A stretch of DNA of 7,094 nt from Candidatus Latescibacterota bacterium (GCA_016209865.1 JACQVL010000015.1:1-7094), one strand, 5' to 3'. Shown: positions 1,161-7,094, counted from the first letter of the stretch. A program made the numbers and translations. Notes: generated from the sequence alone by a model not told the origin.

Positions 1161-1250
1161 AAGGACGAAGGACGAAAACGGCAAGGACGAAAACGGCAAG
1201 GACGAAAACGGCAAGGATAAAGGACGAAAAAGTAAGGACGAAAAGGACGA
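1161..1250 (+). repeat. AAGGACGA tandem array, forward arm, after moaA
   Basis: Seven exact copies of AAGGACGA begin at 1161, 1168, 1183, 1198, 1220, 1234 and 1243, with a degenerate copy at 1213. Copies at 1161 and 1168 are in seven-base register. Within the array a 15-base unit (C/G)AAGGACGAAAACGG is repeated three times head to tail at 1167, 1182 and 1197. The array starts eight bases after the moaA stop. The same motif recurs in reverse orientation at 1271-1299 and in the same orientation after ilvD at 6956-6984. Confidence 0.9.
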
Positions 1251-1270
1251 TGAATGTGGACAGGTTTCTT

Positions 1271-1299
1271 TCGTACTTCGTCCTTCGACCTTCGTCCTT
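1271..1299 (-). repeat. AAGGACGA array, reverse arm, before the moeB fusion
   Basis: TCGTCCTT, the reverse complement of AAGGACGA, occurs at 1278 and 1292, and a one-mismatch copy TCGTACTT at 1271 keeps seven-base register with 1278. Together with 1161-1250 it forms an inverted pair that brackets the gap. The arm ends 19 bases before the downstream start codon. Confidence 0.8.
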
Positions 1300-1305
1300 T
1301 TTAAT

Positions 1306-1314
1306 AAAGGGGGG
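1306..1314 (+). promoter_or_regulatory. G-rich ribosome binding site setting the moeB start
   Basis: AAAGGGGGG ends four bases before the ATG at 1319. The upstream in-frame ATG at 1250 lies inside repeat DNA, and the residues it would add are a translation of the TCGTCCTT repeat, so this site decides in favour of 1319. Confidence 0.7.
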
Positions 1315-1318
1315 CATT

Positions 1319-2497
1319 ATGCGGGTCACATCACAGGAACTGTTAGCGCGGACGAAGCGCGAGATTCACGAGATGACGGTGGCGCAGGTCCGTGAGAAGC
1401 TGGAGAAGAAAGAGCCGTTCGTCCTCGTCGACGTCCGGGAACTGGACGAGTACGCGGAAGGGTTCATCGACGGGGCGATCCACATTCCGCGCGGGTTCCT
1501 TGAACTCCGGATCGAGAACGCCGTCAACGACCGTGACAAAGAGATCGTCCTGTACTGCGCCGGCGGCAACCGGTCGGCGCTTGCCGCCAAATCCCTCGAG
1601 GAGATGGGCTACACGAACGTCATCTCGATGGCCGGAGGGATGACCGGCTGGCGGAACGCCGGGTATCCAGCGAAGAAAGAGCGGATGCTCACCTCGGAGG
1701 AACGGGAGCGGTACTCCAGGCATTTGAGAGTCCCGGAGGTCGGGGAGAAAGGACAGATCAAGATTCTGGACGCCAAAGTGCTCCTGATCGGCGCGGGCGG
1801 CTTAGGCTCTCCGGCCGGGTACTACTTAGCCGCGGCGGGTGTCGGGACGATGGGATTGATCGATTCCGACGTCGTCGACGTGACCAACCTGCAGCGGCAG
1901 ATCCTCCACGGCACGTCTGACATCGGCCGGCCGAAGGTCGTCTCGGCGACGGAGACGATCAAGGACCTCAACCCCGGCGTGAACGTCGTGACCTTCCAGG
2001 AACGGTTGATGTCGGACAACATCATGGACATCATCAAGGACTACGACATCGTCGTGGACGGGTGCGATAATTTCCCGACCCGGTATTTAGTGAACGATGC
2101 ATGCGTCCTGGCCGGAAAACCGAACGTTCATGGGAGCATCTACCAGTTCGACGGGTACGCGACGGTGTTCTATCCCGGCAAGGGGCCGTGCTACCGTTGC
2201 ATGTACCCGGAGCCGCCGCCGCCCGGCATGGTGCCGAGCTGCGATGAGGCCGGAGTGCTGGGCGTGCTGCCGGGGGTGGTCGGGGTGATCCAGGCGACGG
2301 AGACGCTGAAGCTCATCCTGGGCAAGGGCCAGCCGCTCATCGGCCGCGTGTTGATGTACGATGCGTTAGACATGAGCTTTAACACGTTCAGTGTCCGCCG
2401 GAACCCCGCCTGCCCGATCTGCGGGGACAACCCGACAGTTCATGAGTTGATCGACTACGAAGCCTTCTGCGGCATGCCAGCGCAGGCGGCAGGGTGA
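1319..2497 (+). CDS. moeB: Rhodanese-MoeB/ThiF fusion, sulfur-carrier adenylyltransferase
   Basis: 392 residues in two domains. Residues about 15-120 are a rhodanese domain (LVDVR at 36-40; active loop CAGGNRS with C80 as the persulfide cysteine; GGMTGW at 106-111). Residues about 125-375 are a ThiF/MoeB E1-like adenylyltransferase: the ATP-binding loop GAGGLGSP (158-165), NLQRQILH (190-197), DGCDNFPTR (248-256), the SCDEAGVLG segment with C308, and zinc ligands CYRC (291, 294) and CPIC (365, 368). The family adenylates the C-terminal Gly-Gly of a small sulfur carrier (MoaD, ThiS or CysO), and a rhodanese partner can supply the sulfur. Adjacency to moaA favours MoaD and molybdopterin synthesis, but the carrier is not encoded here. 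In MoeZ and MOCS3 the rhodanese is C-terminal; here it is N-terminal, while the end (IDYEAFCG at 378-385) resembles the linker that leads into rhodanese in those proteins. All catalytic residues look intact. A dedicated role in thiamine or cysteine synthesis remains possible. Confidence 0.92.
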   Translation: MRVTSQELLARTKREIHEMTVAQVREKLEKKEPFVLVDVRELDEYAEGFIDGAIHIPRGFLELRIENAVNDRDKEIVLYCAGGNRSALAAKSLEEMGYTNVISMAGGMTGWRNAGYPAKKERMLTSEERERYSRHLRVPEVGEKGQIKILDAKVLLIGAGGLGSPAGYYLAAAGVGTMGLIDSDVVDVTNLQRQILHGTSDIGRPKVVSATETIKDLNPGVNVVTFQERLMSDNIMDIIKDYDIVVDGCDNFPTRYLVNDACVLAGKPNVHGSIYQFDGYATVFYPGKGPCYRCMYPEPPPPGMVPSCDEAGVLGVLPGVVGVIQATETLKLILGKGQPLIGRVLMYDALDMSFNTFSVRRNPACPICGDNPTVHELIDYEAFCGMPAQAAG

Positions 2498-2503
2498 AAT
2501 GAG

Positions 2504-2531
2504 CGGTGATCGGTGGTCAGTGGTCGGTGAA
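2504..2531 (+). repeat. Degenerate CGGTGRT heptamer array after moeB
   Basis: Four units in strict seven-base register start at 2504 (CGGTGAT), 2511 (CGGTGGT), 2518 (CAGTGGT) and 2525 (CGGTGAA). The array starts seven bases after the moeB stop and is followed almost at once by the GTGACGA array. No reverse partner is seen in this window. Confidence 0.65.
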
Positions 2532-2535
2532 AAAT

Positions 2536-2568
2536 CAGTGACGAGTGACGAGTGGCAAGTGACGAGTC
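2536..2568 (+). repeat. GTGACGA heptamer array, forward arm, gap 2
   Basis: Four units in seven-base register start at 2538, 2545, 2552 (degenerate GTGGCAA) and 2559; the other three are exact GTGACGA. Bases 2536-2567 are complementary to 2673-2704 at 28 of 32 positions, so the two arms could form a long stem in read-through RNA or a cruciform in DNA. Confidence 0.9.
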
Positions 2569-2615
2569 AAGACCGTTGAACAACTCATGTGGCTGATATG
2601 GAACCTTCGTGATGG

Positions 2616-2635
2616 ATTCCCGCTTGCGCGGGAAT
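2616..2635. repeat. Short ATTCCCGC/GCGGGAAT palindrome
   Basis: Perfect eight-base inverted repeat, 2616-2623 with 2628-2635, around the loop TTGC. It lies between the two GTGACGA arms. The core ATTCCC(8)GGGAAT has the form of the dispersed 20-base repeats called dRS3 in Neisseria, and from memory similar copies occur in many unrelated genomes, where minus-strand reading gives spurious peptides containing SFPRKRES. Read on the minus strand, this copy gives that same peptide. It is probably a copy of a mobile or dispersed repeat; no T-run follows, so a terminator is unlikely. Confidence 0.85.
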
Positions 2636-2672
2636 GACACCATGAAAGCGACCCGTCACAGGAGAGAGGATA

Positions 2673-2704
2673 ACTCGTCACTCGTCACCTGTCACTCGTC
2701 ACTG
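2673..2704 (-). repeat. GTGACGA heptamer array, reverse arm, before the GarR-like gene
   Basis: Units of TCGTCAC in seven-base register start at 2675, 2682, 2689 (degenerate CTGTCAC) and 2696. It matches the array at 5228-5259 at 30 of 32 positions, differing only inside the third unit. It ends 20 bases before the start codon at 2725, just upstream of the ribosome binding site. Confidence 0.9.
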
Positions 2705-2724
2705 CTTTTAGCGAAAGGAATCTC

Positions 2725-3618
2725 ATGCAACCACGGATCGGGTTTATCGGACTGGGCATCATGGGCAAGCCGATGTGCCGGAACCTCCTCAAGGCCGGGT
2801 ATGGGTTGACCGTCTCCAACCGGAGCCGGCCGGCCGTCGAGGAGATCGTCGCCGCCGGGGCGACGGGGGCCGGGTCGTCGAAGGAAGTGGCGGAGCGGTC
2901 GGACATCGTCATCACGATGGTGACCGACTCCCCGGATGTCGAGCAGGTCATCCTGGGGCCGAACGGGGTGGCCGAGGGAGCGCGGCCGGGCCTGATCGTG
3001 ATCGACATGAGCACGATCTCGCCGTCGGTCACCCGACGGATCGCGGAGACACTGGAAGCCAAAGGGGTGGAGATGCTCGACGCCCCGGTCAGCGGCGGGG
3101 ATAAGGGGGCGATCGCCGGGACGCTCTCCATCATGGTCGGCGGCAAGGAAGCGGTGTTCAACACGTGTCTGCCCGTGTTCCAGGCGATGGGGAAGACGAT
3201 CATCCATATCGGCGGGCACGGGGCGGGCCAGATGACCAAACTCTGCAACCAGGTCGCCGTCTGCCTGGCCAACCTGGCCATGGCCGAAGCCCTTCTGTTG
3301 GGGGCGAAAGCGGGCCTGAACCTCGAACGGATGCTCCAGGCGATCAGCGGCGGGGCGGCCGGCTCCTGGCAGCTCTCGAACCTCGCCCCCCGCATCCCGA
3401 AGCGGGATTTTGAACCGGGCTTCATGGTCAGGCTGCAGCAAAAAGACCTGCGGCTGGTGGTGGCAGCGGCGAATGAACTCGGCCTGGCGCTCCCGGGCAC
3501 CAGCCTCGTCCATCAACTCTTCAACACGGTTGAAGCGGCGGGTGAGGGCAACAAGGGAACCCAGGCTCTCGTGAAAGCGCTGGAACGGATGGCCGGGTTC
3601 GAGGTCAAGGGGGAGTGA
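2725..3618 (+). CDS. garR: NAD(P)-dependent 2-hydroxy-3-oxopropionate reductase / 3-hydroxyisobutyrate dehydrogenase family
   Basis: Beta-hydroxyacid dehydrogenase of 297 residues, the usual family length. In order: the Rossmann loop GLGIMG (9-14) opening with IGFIGLG; the substrate-binding signature DAPVSGG (119-125) followed by GTLSIMVGG (132-140); the catalytic region GAGQMTKLCNQ with K172 as the general acid/base; and KD at 240-241 in the C-terminal helical domain. As I recall E. coli GarR (tartronate semialdehyde reductase), similarity is spread along the whole protein, including GIMGKPM, LLKAGY and DMLDAPVSGG-like stretches, so the reaction is likely reduction of tartronate semialdehyde to D-glycerate, or of a related semialdehyde such as succinic or glyoxylic. 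N32-R33-S34 after the second strand resembles the NRT of NADPH-using glyoxylate reductases, which hints at NADPH use (inference). AAAGGA (2714-2719) lies five bases before the ATG. No gene for glyoxylate carboligase or glycerate kinase is nearby, so the exact substrate is open and the symbol is tentative. Confidence 0.88.
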   Translation: MQPRIGFIGLGIMGKPMCRNLLKAGYGLTVSNRSRPAVEEIVAAGATGAGSSKEVAERSDIVITMVTDSPDVEQVILGPNGVAEGARPGLIVIDMSTISPSVTRRIAETLEAKGVEMLDAPVSGGDKGAIAGTLSIMVGGKEAVFNTCLPVFQAMGKTIIHIGGHGAGQMTKLCNQVAVCLANLAMAEALLLGAKAGLNLERMLQAISGGAAGSWQLSNLAPRIPKRDFEPGFMVRLQQKDLRLVVAAANELGLALPGTSLVHQLFNTVEAAGEGNKGTQALVKALERMAGFEVKGE

Positions 3619-3651
3619 TTCAAGATTCGAGTGAAGATCGTCTCTTGAATC
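3617..3651. other. Nine-base inverted repeat overlapping a stop codon
   Basis: GATTCAAGA (3617-3625), which overlaps the last two bases of the TGA stop, is exactly complementary to TCTTGAATC (3643-3651), with a 17-base loop. It fills most of the 54-base gap before the next gene. There is no T-run after it, so it is not a standard intrinsic terminator. It could be an RNA-processing or stabilising hairpin between two co-transcribed genes, an operator, or chance. Confidence 0.5.
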
Positions 3652-3672
3652 CAGGATGAATGGGAGCTATCG

Positions 3673-4620
3673 ATGTCAAAACTCCTGGCTGTGCTCTGTA
3701 CGCGACGACGCCACGGGAACACCGCTACCCTCCTGAAAGAAGCGATGGCCGGGGCGCAAACGGTCGAAGGCGTGGAGGTCGAGCCGCTGTACCTGCACAG
3801 CTCTTCCTTCGGACCGTGCCGGAGCAGCTTCTGGTGCATCCGACATGGCGGCGTTGGATGTTGTCTCGACGATGATTTCGGTCGGAAGGGGGAAGGAGAA
3901 ATCTTCAAGCAGGTCACCCAGGCGAACGGTATCATCGTCGCCGACCCGGTGCAGTTCTGGGGCCCCTCAGCGACCGCGCATCTCTTTTTCGAACGACTGT
4001 ACCCGTTTCACTGGTCGGACCTCTTGAACGGCATCCCGTTCGGGTCGATCACCTGCGCGACCAATCAGGGATTCCAGCTCTATTCGACCCGCGAGATTTG
4101 TAAATGGGCGTTTACGATGAAGATGCGGTATATCGAGTCGGTGTCCGCCCACACCGCCCAGTGGGAGCAGCATATCCAGGCCGCCCGTGAACTCGGCGTC
4201 GCGGTCGCCCGCGCGTCGCTGGATGATGCCAGGCAGCGGGTCAAATTCACAGAACAGGACGTGTACGCCTACTACCTCGACAAGCCCTGGAGAGTCTACG
4301 AGCCCTATTTTGAGAACATGACCGACGGAAAGTATACGTATGAAGATTCCCTCATCGGGCGCGCACTGGCCGAGGGGAGCTTCAAACGCCCGGAGGCGAT
4401 TGACCTGTTGCAGAAAGCCGGGACAGAGTTTAAACAAGCCCTGGCGTCTTACCTCGAACACAATCAGGAGGCGGCCAGCCAGCATCTGATTAAAGCGGCG
4501 GATTTCTGGACGAACGCGACCTGGAAAGAGTTCTTAGAAGAAACGGTGATCAAGGCTCCGCAGCCCGAAGCGTACCGGTCGCTCAAACAGTATGAGCATG
4601 AGGAAAGTCCGGACGTGTGA
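3673..4620 (+). CDS. Flavodoxin-fold NAD(P)H-dependent oxidoreductase-like protein with C-terminal extension
   Basis: 315 residues. Residues 1 to about 180 look like the NADPH-dependent FMN reductase / iron-sulfur flavoprotein group: a first strand LLAVLCT, a phosphate loop of the type (G)SxRxxGNTxxL here seen as CTRRRHGNTATLL (9-21), a central IIVADPVQFWGPSA (87-100) that corresponds to the usual gsPvYw-type FMN site, and SITCATNQG (125-133). In iron-sulfur flavoproteins a compact cysteine cluster follows the second strand; here C49, C55 and C63/C64 are present in that place, but position 52, where the second cysteine is expected, is serine. Whether a cluster is bound is therefore doubtful. 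Residues about 185-315 form a charged, mostly helical extension with many aromatic residues (YAYYLDKPWRVYEPYF at 198-213) that I do not recognise. No signal peptide or membrane segment, so cytoplasmic. GGGAG (3662-3666) is six bases before the ATG. Electron donor and acceptor are unknown; it probably shares a transcript with the next gene (44-base gap). Confidence 0.75.
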   Translation: MSKLLAVLCTRRRHGNTATLLKEAMAGAQTVEGVEVEPLYLHSSSFGPCRSSFWCIRHGGVGCCLDDDFGRKGEGEIFKQVTQANGIIVADPVQFWGPSATAHLFFERLYPFHWSDLLNGIPFGSITCATNQGFQLYSTREICKWAFTMKMRYIESVSAHTAQWEQHIQAARELGVAVARASLDDARQRVKFTEQDVYAYYLDKPWRVYEPYFENMTDGKYTYEDSLIGRALAEGSFKRPEAIDLLQKAGTEFKQALASYLEHNQEAASQHLIKAADFWTNATWKEFLEETVIKAPQPEAYRSLKQYEHEESPDV

Positions 4621-4664
4621 ACGTGCAAACGTATTACCTTACCGCACAGCATTGAAAGGAGTGT

Positions 4665-5141
4665 ATGCGTTCCACCACGATCGTGAGTACCGTCAGTCTG
4701 GTCGCGGTGGTGTCGGCTGCGGTCATCTTAGCGATGAGCCAGCAGGAGCAAGACCCTCCGGAACCGGCCACCCCGGTCGCTCAAGGCGCCAGGCTGTTTC
4801 GCATACAAGGCTGCGCTGTTTGTCATGCCATCGGGAACGGAGCATCCCGCGGGCCGAACCTGGCCGGCCTCGTCCCCAGGCTGGAACAGCGCCTCGACCC
4901 GGAACAGTATCAACGGCAGATGGCGGGGATTCGAAAAAAACGTCCCGACGTGTACCAGCAGTACGAGGGGGTGTACACGGACATCCTCGCCCGTGACGGA
5001 GAAGAGCGCCTCCGCGCCTGGCTGACCGCCCATCTCCGGAACCCACGGTTCGATTTTCCGGAGGGCAAGATGCCAAACTACGGGCATCTCACTCCGCAAC
5101 AGGTGGAGTCGTTGATTGAGTTTTTGCTGACACTGAAGTGA
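4665..5141 (+). CDS. Mono-heme class I cytochrome c, membrane-anchored or exported
   Basis: 158 residues. Residues about 5-24 are a hydrophobic segment after a short N-terminus with R2, so the protein is exported and either anchored by this helix or cleaved after it; no lipobox cysteine is present. A Pro/Glu/Gln-rich linker (26-40) follows. CAVCH (50-54) is the covalent heme c site with H54 as axial ligand, RGPNLAG (62-68) is the usual following loop, and M136 in GKMPNYG is the expected sixth ligand, so this is a class I His/Met cytochrome. HLTPQQVESLIEFLLTLK is the standard C-terminal helix. The distance from CxxCH to the Met (82 residues) is longer than in a minimal c-type domain (about 40-60) because of a charged helical insert around 74-125. 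AAAGGAG (4655-4661) is three bases before the ATG. It presumably transfers electrons in the periplasm; its partner is not identified. The cytoplasmic flavoprotein-like gene just upstream may be co-transcribed, but a functional link is not shown. Confidence 0.9.
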   Translation: MRSTTIVSTVSLVAVVSAAVILAMSQQEQDPPEPATPVAQGARLFRIQGCAVCHAIGNGASRGPNLAGLVPRLEQRLDPEQYQRQMAGIRKKRPDVYQQYEGVYTDILARDGEERLRAWLTAHLRNPRFDFPEGKMPNYGHLTPQQVESLIEFLLTLK

Positions 5142-5148
5142 AAGAGCC

Positions 5149-5163
5149 GTGACGAGTGACGAG
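5149..5163 (+). repeat. GTGACGA heptamer array, forward arm, gap 4
   Basis: Two exact GTGACGA units (5149 and 5156) plus a trailing G, starting seven bases after the cytochrome stop codon. The 15 bases are perfectly complementary to 5229-5243, separated by 65 bases, giving a second inverted pair of the same family as in gap 2. Confidence 0.85.
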
Positions 5164-5227
5164 CAAACAGGGTTCACGAATGTTTCACGGTTGCCATTCC
5201 TGTGAAAGCGGAAATCCATCGTTTTTT

Positions 5228-5259
5228 ACTCGTCACTCGTCACTGGTCACTCGTCACTG
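5228..5259 (-). repeat. GTGACGA heptamer array, reverse arm, before ilvD
   Basis: TCGTCAC units in seven-base register start at 5230, 5237, 5244 (degenerate TGGTCAC) and 5251. It is a near copy (30 of 32) of 2673-2704, again with the third unit degenerate, and ends 18 bases before the ilvD start, followed by the ribosome binding site CGGAG (5266-5270). The rest of this 136-base gap shows only a weak six-base hairpin (5183-5188 with 5202-5207) and a run of six T at 5222-5227, too far from the hairpin for a normal terminator. Confidence 0.9.
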
Positions 5260-5277
5260 ATTTACCGGAGACCCATC

Positions 5278-6951
5278 ATGCCCCATGACCTGAAACCCCG
5301 GAGTCACAGTATCACCGACGGCCCGAGCCGTGCCCCGGCCCGTGCGATGCTGAAGGCAGTCGGGTTTACCGACGACGACCTCGCCCGGCCGATCGTCGGG
5401 GTGGCCAACACGTGGATCGAGATCGGCCCCTGCAACTATCACCTGCGCGAACTGGCCGGCCGGATCAAGGACGGCATCCGCGACGCGGGCGGGACGCCGA
5501 TGGAGTTTAACACCGTCTCCATCTCGGACGGCATCACGATGGGGAGTGAGGGGATGAAAGCCTCCCTCATCAGCCGCGAGGTCATCGCCGATTCGATCGA
5601 GCTCGTCGCGCGGGGGAACCTGTTCGACGCGGTCGTGGCCATCTCCGGGTGTGATAAGACGATCCCCGGCACGGTGATGGCCCTGGCTCGCCTCAACGTC
5701 CCCGGCCTCATGCTCTACGGCGGGTCGATCATGCCCGGCCAGTTTCATCGTCATGACGTGACCATCCAGGACGTCTTTGAGGCGGTCGGGGCGTACGCCG
5801 CCGGCAAGATGACGGAGGCCGAGTTCCACGACTTAGAGAGCCACGCCTGCCCGGGGGCGGGCGCGTGCGGCGGCCAGTTCACCGCCAACACGATGGCCGT
5901 CGCGTTCGAGCTGTTGGGCATCTCCCCGATGAGCAGCGCGAGCGTCCCCGCCCTCGACCCGCGGAAGGAGGATGTGGCGTTCCGTTGCGGCCAGCTCGTC
6001 ATGGAGTTGCTGCGCCGCGACCTGCGCCCCCGTCAGATCATCACCCGCCGCTCCTTAGAGAACGCGATCGCCGGGGTGATAATGACGGGCGGGTCGACGA
6101 ACAGCGTCCTCCACCTGCTCGCCATCGCGCGCGAAGCCGGGGTCGACCTGACGATCGACGACTTCGACCGGGTGAGCGCCCGGACTCCGATCCTGGCCGA
6201 CCTGAAGCCGGGAGGCCGGTTCGTGGCCAACGACCTCTACCGGGCGGGCGGCAACGCGCTCATCGCCAGACGGCTCCAAGACGCCGGCCTCCTCCACGCG
6301 GAAGAGCTCACCGTCACCGGCCGCACGATCGGGGAAGAGGCACGCGCGGCGGCGGAAACGCCCGGCCAGGTCGTCGTCCATCCCCTCTCCGACCCGATCA
6401 AGCCGACGGGCGGGCTCGTCATCCTGAGGGGAAACCTGGCTCCGGAGGGATGCGTTCTGAAGCTGGTCGGACACGACCGGACGAGCCATCGCGGCCCGGC
6501 CCGGGTGTTCGATTGCGAAGAGGACGCGTTCGCCGCGGTGCAGCGTCAGGAGATCAGGCCGAACGACGTCGTCGTCATCCGGTATGAAGGGCCGAAAGGG
6601 GGACCGGGGATGCGAGAGATGTTAGCGGTGACGGGGGCGCTCGTCGGGGCTGGGCTGGGGGATTCGGTGGCGCTGATGACGGATGGCCGGTTCTCGGGCG
6701 CGACCCACGGGTTCATGGCCGGCCATGTCTCCCCGGAAGCCGCACGTGGCGGGCCGATCGCGGCGCTGCGTGACGGCGACACCATCGTCTTCGACGTGGC
6801 CTCGCGCCGCCTCGACGTCGAGCTGTCCGACGCGGACCTCCGCGCCCGGCTCAGCGCGTGGACGCCGCCGCCGCCGCGCTACACCTCCGGCGTCATGGCC
6901 AAATACGCCCGCCTCGTGTCGTCCGCCTCGGAAGGAGCGATGACGGGATAA
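5278..6951 (+). CDS. ilvD: Dihydroxy-acid dehydratase IlvD
   Basis: 557 residues, IlvD/Edd family. The enzyme dehydrates 2,3-dihydroxy-isovalerate and 2,3-dihydroxy-3-methylvalerate to the 2-oxo acids that lead to valine, leucine (and pantothenate) and isoleucine. The iron-sulfur ligands expected for the family are present: C52 in GPCNYH, C125 in GCDKTIPG and C197 in [12 protein letters not shown] (another cysteine, C191, lies just before). D84 in SISDGI and D126-K127 are the expected metal-binding residues, K127 being the lysine carbamylated in characterised plant-type enzymes. S473 in [10 protein letters not shown] is the expected catalytic serine, and [12 protein letters not shown] (483-494) distinguishes dihydroxy-acid from sugar-acid dehydratases. 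The length (about 550-560) fits the shorter 2Fe-2S type more than the roughly 616-residue E. coli enzyme. CGGAG lies seven bases before the ATG. No other ilv or leu gene is in the window, so ilvD stands apart from its pathway here. The gene is intact and no attenuator-like leader peptide is seen. Confidence 0.97.
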
Positions 6952-6955
6952 GAGC

Positions 6956-6984
6956 AAGGACGAAAGGGCAAGGACGAAGGACGA
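6956..6984 (+). repeat. AAGGACGA array, forward arm, after ilvD
   Basis: Exact AAGGACGA copies start at 6956, 6970 and 6977, so two copies overlap by one base in seven-base register, as at 1161/1168. The array begins four bases after the ilvD stop codon. By analogy with the moaA gap, a reverse arm may lie beyond the window before the next gene, but it is not in view. Confidence 0.85.
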
Positions 6985-7056
6985 AAAATAAGATGCTATA
7001 GTTTTTCAGAAAAAGAATTGGACTGCCCAGTTTTGCACCTCACCCCTACTCCCCAG

Positions 7057-7094
7057 CCCCCTTCCCCTCTCCGCTTGCGGAGAGGGGAAGGGGG
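7057..7094. repeat. GC-rich palindrome cut by the window end
   Basis: Bases 7057-7074 are perfectly complementary to 7077-7094, an 18-base stem with CGCTTGCG at the tip (a real hairpin would open a few of these). The stem reaches the last base of the window, so the element is probably longer: the 5' flank from about 7039 (CTCACCCCTACTCCCC) has the composition of an outer arm. Elements of this kind (CTCACCCC ... CCCTCTCC/GGAGAGGG) are, from memory, common dispersed repeats. No T-run is visible, so a terminator cannot be claimed. Confidence 0.75.

Follow-up and report, generated by a model that had tools for sequence, protein, structure and literature searches.

Heptamer brackets at the moaA-ilvD locus

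The window analyzed here is a stretch of 7,094 nucleotides from a Candidatus Latescibacterota bacterium (GCA_016209865.1, JACQVL010000015.1:1-7094), corresponding to contig 88 of a 356-contig, 3.75 Mb, 83%-complete assembly (hereafter, the source genome). It carries six genes in the same direction: moaA, a moeB-like gene, a 3-hydroxyisobutyrate-dehydrogenase-like gene (hib), a flavin mononucleotide (FMN)-reductase-like gene, a cytochrome c gene (cytc), and ilvD. Each of the three large gaps (moaA-moeB, moeB-hib, and cytc-ilvD) holds what we refer to as a bracket, in which two arrays of tandem heptamers face each other in inverted orientation. The forward, G-rich (F) arm starts 7-39 bases past the upstream stop, and the reverse, C-rich (R) arm stops 19-21 bases short of the downstream start. 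This placement had been proposed in a first-pass annotation of the window, and the array positions given there were confirmed in all three gaps and after ilvD, as was a CGGTGAT-type site at approximately 2502-2528 (Table 1). Such brackets are a real and ordered feature of some genomes, since the same rule fits unrelated repeat sequences in other bacteria, and the first report of their kind came from Xanthomonas.

Table 1. Repeat arrays and genes of the window
Feature	Position	Strand	Context
AAGGACG-family forward (G-rich) arm	1161-1217	+	3' of moaA stop 1153; continues as 15-base AAGGACGAAAACGGC copies
AAGGACG-family reverse (C-rich) arm	1270-1299	-	5' of moeB start 1319
Outer-shell forward heptamers, CGGTGAT/CGGTGGT-type	2502-2528 (approx.)	+	3' of moeB stop 2497; read from sequence
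GTGACGA-family forward arm	2537-2567	+	
REP palindrome ATTCCCGCTTGCGCGGGAAT	2616-2635	.	moeB-hib spacer
GTGACGA-family reverse arm	2673-2703	-	5' of start 2725
GTGACGA-family forward arm	5149-5163	+	3' of cytochrome c stop 5141
GTGACGA-family reverse arm	5228-5258	-	5' of ilvD start 5278
AAGGACG-family forward arm	6956-6985	+	3' of ilvD stop 6951; any partner lies beyond contig end 7094
moaA	161-1153		
moeB-like gene, rhodanese-ThiF	1319-2497		
3-hydroxyisobutyrate-dehydrogenase-like gene (hib)	2725-3618		
FMN-reductase-like gene	3673-4620		
Cytochrome c gene (cytc)	4665-5141		
ilvD	5278-6951		

Orientation and family matching within and beyond the source genome

Across the 3.75 Mb of the source genome, exact two-unit words of GTGACGA and AAGGACG occur 237 and 90 times, respectively, while the same patterns read backwards do not occur (0 matches). 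Array order was examined in a 709 kb sample consisting of 20 stretches around matches and 40 taken by contig number; the former were picked for containing matches, which biases array density but not array order. Genes were called with a simple home-made codon-usage caller that recovers the genes of the window. The sample contains 217 arrays of period 7, compared with 6, 29, 31, and 28 for periods 5, 6, 8, and 9, and 185 of the 217 are intergenic, in a sample where intergenic bases make up 12%.

In every gap of the sample that holds both orientations of the three main families, the forward array comes before the reverse one (FR 50, RF 0), and orientation is therefore not random with respect to gene ends, as the first-pass annotation had anticipated. 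Among gaps no shorter than 30 bp, these 50 represent 46 of 288 tandem, 3 of 23 convergent, and 1 of 38 divergent gaps. When neighboring arrays are counted once per gap, a G-rich array precedes a C-rich one in 52 cases (GC) and the opposite order (CG) in none. Positions are likewise constrained: the F arm starts between -8 and +12 bases from the stop in 39 of the 46 tandem brackets, and most R arms end 8-26 bases 5' of the start, just ahead of the ribosome-binding site. Over the whole genome, opposite-strand pairs of exact AAGGACG matches within ~260 bases of one another are all plus-then-minus among the matches listed. Arrays standing alone follow a related preference: 66 lie nearer to the gene 5' of their G strand and 13 nearer to the other one.

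The two arms also belong together. One family supplies both arms in 50 of 51 gaps, whereas 20,000 rounds of shuffling gave 20.2 such gaps on average and never more than 34. The earlier claim that arms never mix families thus holds in all but one of these gaps, with the qualification that two families can co-occur in one gap as nested shells (for example, at locus L064 near 4844 and locus L053 near 12951). Each shell is G-first, and some of these two-family shells surround a repetitive extragenic palindromic (REP) sequence.

This polarity is not tied to particular units. Using G minus C content as the polarity score of any period-7 array, we find the G-rich arm first in 93 versus 4 pairs from 18 families of the source genome, with some pairs possibly counted from both arms; pairs of period 8 behave alike (13 versus 2). 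The relatives in our search set belong to the same taxonomic order as the source genome and not to its taxonomic family. One of them, G013, has different units and shows G-rich-first pairs in a ratio of 17:0 (per gap, GC 12, CG 0). Its loci L118-L120 and L237-L256 carry their own heptamers and octamers, such as GGTGATT, again with the G-rich arm first. Beyond the order, loci were chosen through one heptamer, GTGACGA. Among the matches listed, three-unit exact copies occur in Chloroflexi, Acidobacteria, Verrucomicrobia, Kiritimatiellae, Nitrospirae, Bacteroidetes, Cyanobacteria, and Proteobacteria; GTGACGA pairs at these loci are FR in 38 cases and RF in 2, and neighboring arrays per gap are GC in 34 and CG in 1. 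Xanthomonas sp. Leaf148 agrees with the polarity on few pairs (GC 2, CG 0), and a phylum-wide search of 16 genomes added little. Divergent gaps are G-first as well (3 in the source genome, 1 in G013, and 9 in other phyla, with no CG gap), although gene calls in the other phyla are rough. This observation counts against explanations that require both arms in one transcript.

Two general causes of the polarity were rejected. Inverted repeats of the ordinary intergenic kind are barely biased in this way, if at all, in G013 (23:25) or in other phyla (89:72), which excludes a general polarity of hairpins; the ratio of 48:29 in the source genome probably includes residual degenerate arrays. Stop codons in all frames are provided by three GTGACGA units and not by AAGGACG or GGATTTT. 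Within the window, the three units at 2537-2567 place TGA in all three frames, while the reverse arm contains no stop, and this may bear on where arms of the GTGACGA family are tolerated.

As far as our searches of the open literature show, the rule for units unable to form GGG quadruplexes, the family-matched arms, and the cross-phylum polarity are new. What had been a curiosity of one quadruplex-forming heptamer becomes a rule with almost no exceptions, obeyed by many unrelated heptamers and octamers from several phyla.

Anatomy and gain of the brackets

Array edges in the GTGACGA family have a preferred phase: 85 of 162 start with AGTGACG, while 57 end in GACGAGT and 38 in TGACGAG. Sequence to either side of these arrays is A-rich, and their lengths have modes at 24 and 31 bases; GGATTTT arrays measure ~31-34 bases, and AAGGACG arrays are mostly shorter. 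Array lengths overall agree with a preference for approximately four units of the type described by Rehm et al. (2015). Spacers are mostly 20-125 bases long and have little in common beyond REP-type stretches. A REP core is present in 19 of 58 spacers, with an F arm to its left and/or an R arm to its right and never the reverse arrangement.

The first-pass annotation had suggested a gap-wide element copied as an inverted pair. The gap-wide unit stands, given the single family per gap and the gains described below, but the copying does not. Arms within a gap resemble each other in unit variants no more closely than arms from separate gaps do (p 0.92, 0.75, 0.80), and we therefore reject the copying of an arm from its partner; in addition, the lengths of the two arms show no overall correlation, and spacers are not shared. 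Some lone arms resemble decayed brackets, since one solitary partner unit persists where the second arm would be expected in 8 of 71 cases (against an expectation of 2.7) and never on the opposite side (0 of 67).

The gene order moaA, moeB, hib, cytc, ilvD is kept in order-level relatives. The moaA-moeB gap spans 165 bases here versus 12 (stop, ribosome-binding site, and ATG) in most Nitrospira-like relatives, and the cytc-ilvD gap spans 136 bases versus 13-33 in 8 of 14 relatives. Because these gaps are compact in relatives, two of the three brackets in the window are best read, from sequence comparison, as gains in the space between stop and ribosome-binding site. The moeB-hib gap is already 81-246 bases long in relatives, without GTGACGA arrays, and in G013 it has its own TGGTGATT arrays immediately past the stop. 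In another genus (genome G011, locus L257), the moaA-moeB gap contains C-rich heptamers ccaaagtccaaagcccaacatccaacatccaaagt with no forward partner. The FMN-reductase-like gene between hib and cytc is missing from that position in the order relatives, where hib and cytc lie 0-99 bases apart.

Candidate explanations and published relatives

Among published repeats, the convergent GGGAATC heptamers described in Xanthomonas are the closest relative that we found (PMC4692102). Rehm et al. (2015) described GGGNATC heptamers that favor four units and form 70-75 convergent pairs in each Xanthomonas genome, and proposed G-quadruplexes for them; Nostoc has few convergent pairs (PMC4692102). Like the arrays described here, the GGGNATC repeats of Xanthomonas and Nostoc are intergenic, comprise about four units, and are frequent between aligned genes and rare where genes diverge, with the G-rich strand in sense right past stops and in antisense right ahead of starts. 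The main units here are, however, other sequences, mostly unable to form a GGG-tract quadruplex, and the source genome has many families with matched arms, nested shells, and REP sequences in the spacer. Judged by sequence, the brackets thus resemble this class in placement and are not filed as a quadruplex repeat. The cyanobacterial short tandemly repeated repetitive (STRR) sequences, to which the arrays had earlier been likened, are also intergenic heptamer tandem repeats, and our comparison is limited to that trait. The TAACTGA repeats of Beggiatoaceae (PMC4679880) are likewise lineage-specific intergenic heptamer arrays near gene ends, but they are mostly direct, sense-strand repeats just upstream of starts, with hardly any inverted pairs.

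Our preferred reading, which we hold tentatively, is that the bracket is a DNA-level, non-coding, gap-filling repeat element that is tolerated between stop and ribosome-binding site and has an intrinsic polarity. Such an element would comprise two inverted arms of ~3-5 tandem heptamers from one family around a non-conserved spacer, often with a REP palindrome. It would be gained where a compact gap permits insertion, which is only from the upstream stop to the downstream ribosome-binding site, and this tolerance would account for its seeming precision relative to gene ends. We favor the view that the polarity, with the G-rich strand running inward from both sides, belongs to the element itself because it recurs across numerous unrelated units, other phyla, and every type of gap. 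Arms would probably grow by slippage of 7 and sometimes 8 bases, and those within a family may be kept alike through exchange between dispersed arrays. In a read-through transcript, the arms would pair into an intercistronic RNA stem, so any action may be like that of REP sequences and bacterial interspersed mosaic elements (BIMEs), namely mRNA 3'-end protection or mild polarity. REP/BIME sequences are similarly extragenic palindromes between tandem or convergent genes, and a third of the bracket spacers hold a REP core, but the bracket arms are heptamer arrays rather than REP sequence.

Several points weigh against this reading. Neither a Y1/RAYT transposase (PF01797), as associated with REP/BIME, nor a reverse transcriptase domain was found in the 83%-complete assembly, and a search for target-site duplications at the brackets returned none. 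Exchange between arrays is suggested solely by the missing within-gap similarity. One fixed polarity is not obviously predicted by a purely passive element, and this reading does not account for the G-first order.

A possible, less probable explanation is selection for the intercistronic RNA stem, a long hairpin that would protect the upstream mRNA or tune the downstream gene. Here, the benefit of the G-first order would be that the C-rich, Rho-loading arm is made second and is paired, and so sequestered, at once. Consistent with this, brackets are enriched in tandem and convergent gaps and scarce per base in divergent ones, the predicted minimum-energy fold pairs the F arm with the R arm in 39 of 44 elements, and the Xanthomonas GGGAATC repeats are mostly transcribed (PMC4692102). 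However, the unit variants of the two arms in a gap show no compensatory matching, the lengths of the arms are uncorrelated overall, divergent gaps keep the polarity though their arms need no common transcript, and lone C-rich arms occur just 5' of starts. Predicted accessibility of the ribosome-binding site is also unchanged in silico (0.40 for the full element, 0.41 without the F arm, and 0.37 without the R arm), and on this ground we reject a ribosome-binding-site switch. Of the earlier proposal of a stem in read-through RNA, what survives is that the stem can form; its selection is possible but does not explain the G-first order, divergent gaps included.

We consider it unlikely that the bracket is a miniature inverted-repeat transposable element (MITE), with the heptamer arms as terminal inverted repeats and a transposase moving the whole unit. 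The fixed phase at array ends, the A-rich flanks, the two length modes, and the gains at junctions where relatives have compact gaps would all fit. Spacers, however, are alike mainly in REP-type stretches instead of sharing internal sequence, and the missing target-site duplications and Y1 transposase tell against it too, although other transposase families were not searched. Slightly more improbable is a dedicated and widespread activity that adds repeats of 7-8 bases, with the G-rich strand into the gap from both sides in a telomere-like polarity. Each lineage would use its own unit, and polarity and unit length, but not sequence, would be conserved between phyla.

More doubtful still are paired sites for a DNA-bending or nucleoid protein, after the integration host factor (IHF)/HU proposal for Geobacter metallireducens. 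That genome carries short arrays of 3-5 tandem 7/8-mers in pairs, one on each strand and separated by varying distances (PMC2700814), and in the source genome the polarity is followed by 7- and 8-base units alike. The G. metallireducens repeats differ in consensus and were themselves listed as putative IHF/HU sites, and the main text of that report gives no polarity rule and presents the protein as conjecture (PMC2700814). Moreover, many unrelated units obey the rule within one genome, which is not expected of recognition by one sequence-specific protein.

It is very improbable that the brackets generally reflect G-quadruplexes folded from four G-tracts per arm, as proposed for the GGGNATC repeats. 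Xanthomonas and Nostoc do show a like placement and four-unit preference (PMC4692102), but GTGACGA, AAGGACG, and GGATTTT contain no GGG, and hence no arm with four GGG tracts. AAGGACG and GGATTTT have only GG, and GTGACGA lacks even a GG step and still abides by the rule with placement and polarity unchanged, so quadruplex formation is removed as the general explanation of convergent heptamers. It may contribute in GGG-bearing families. Simple tandem slippage without higher order, although period-7 arrays are common in bacteria according to work cited in PMC4679880, is refuted as a full explanation by the 50:0 orientation and 50/51 family matching, in line with the first-pass view that slippage would not explain so ordered a placement. 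These results raise a testable question: what process or selection puts the G-rich arm first and gives both arms one unit?

Two further repeats lie near the ends of the window. Upstream of moaA, positions 30-110 contain a palindromic, repeat-like stretch (gtcaccctgagcggagcgaagggtctc ... gagattcttcgcttcgctcagaatgacag), and at the contig end, positions 7040-7094 form a polypyrimidine/polypurine hairpin, cccccttcccctctccgcttgcggagaggggaaggggg, which is reminiscent of intrastrand-triplex repeats (PMC4666352).

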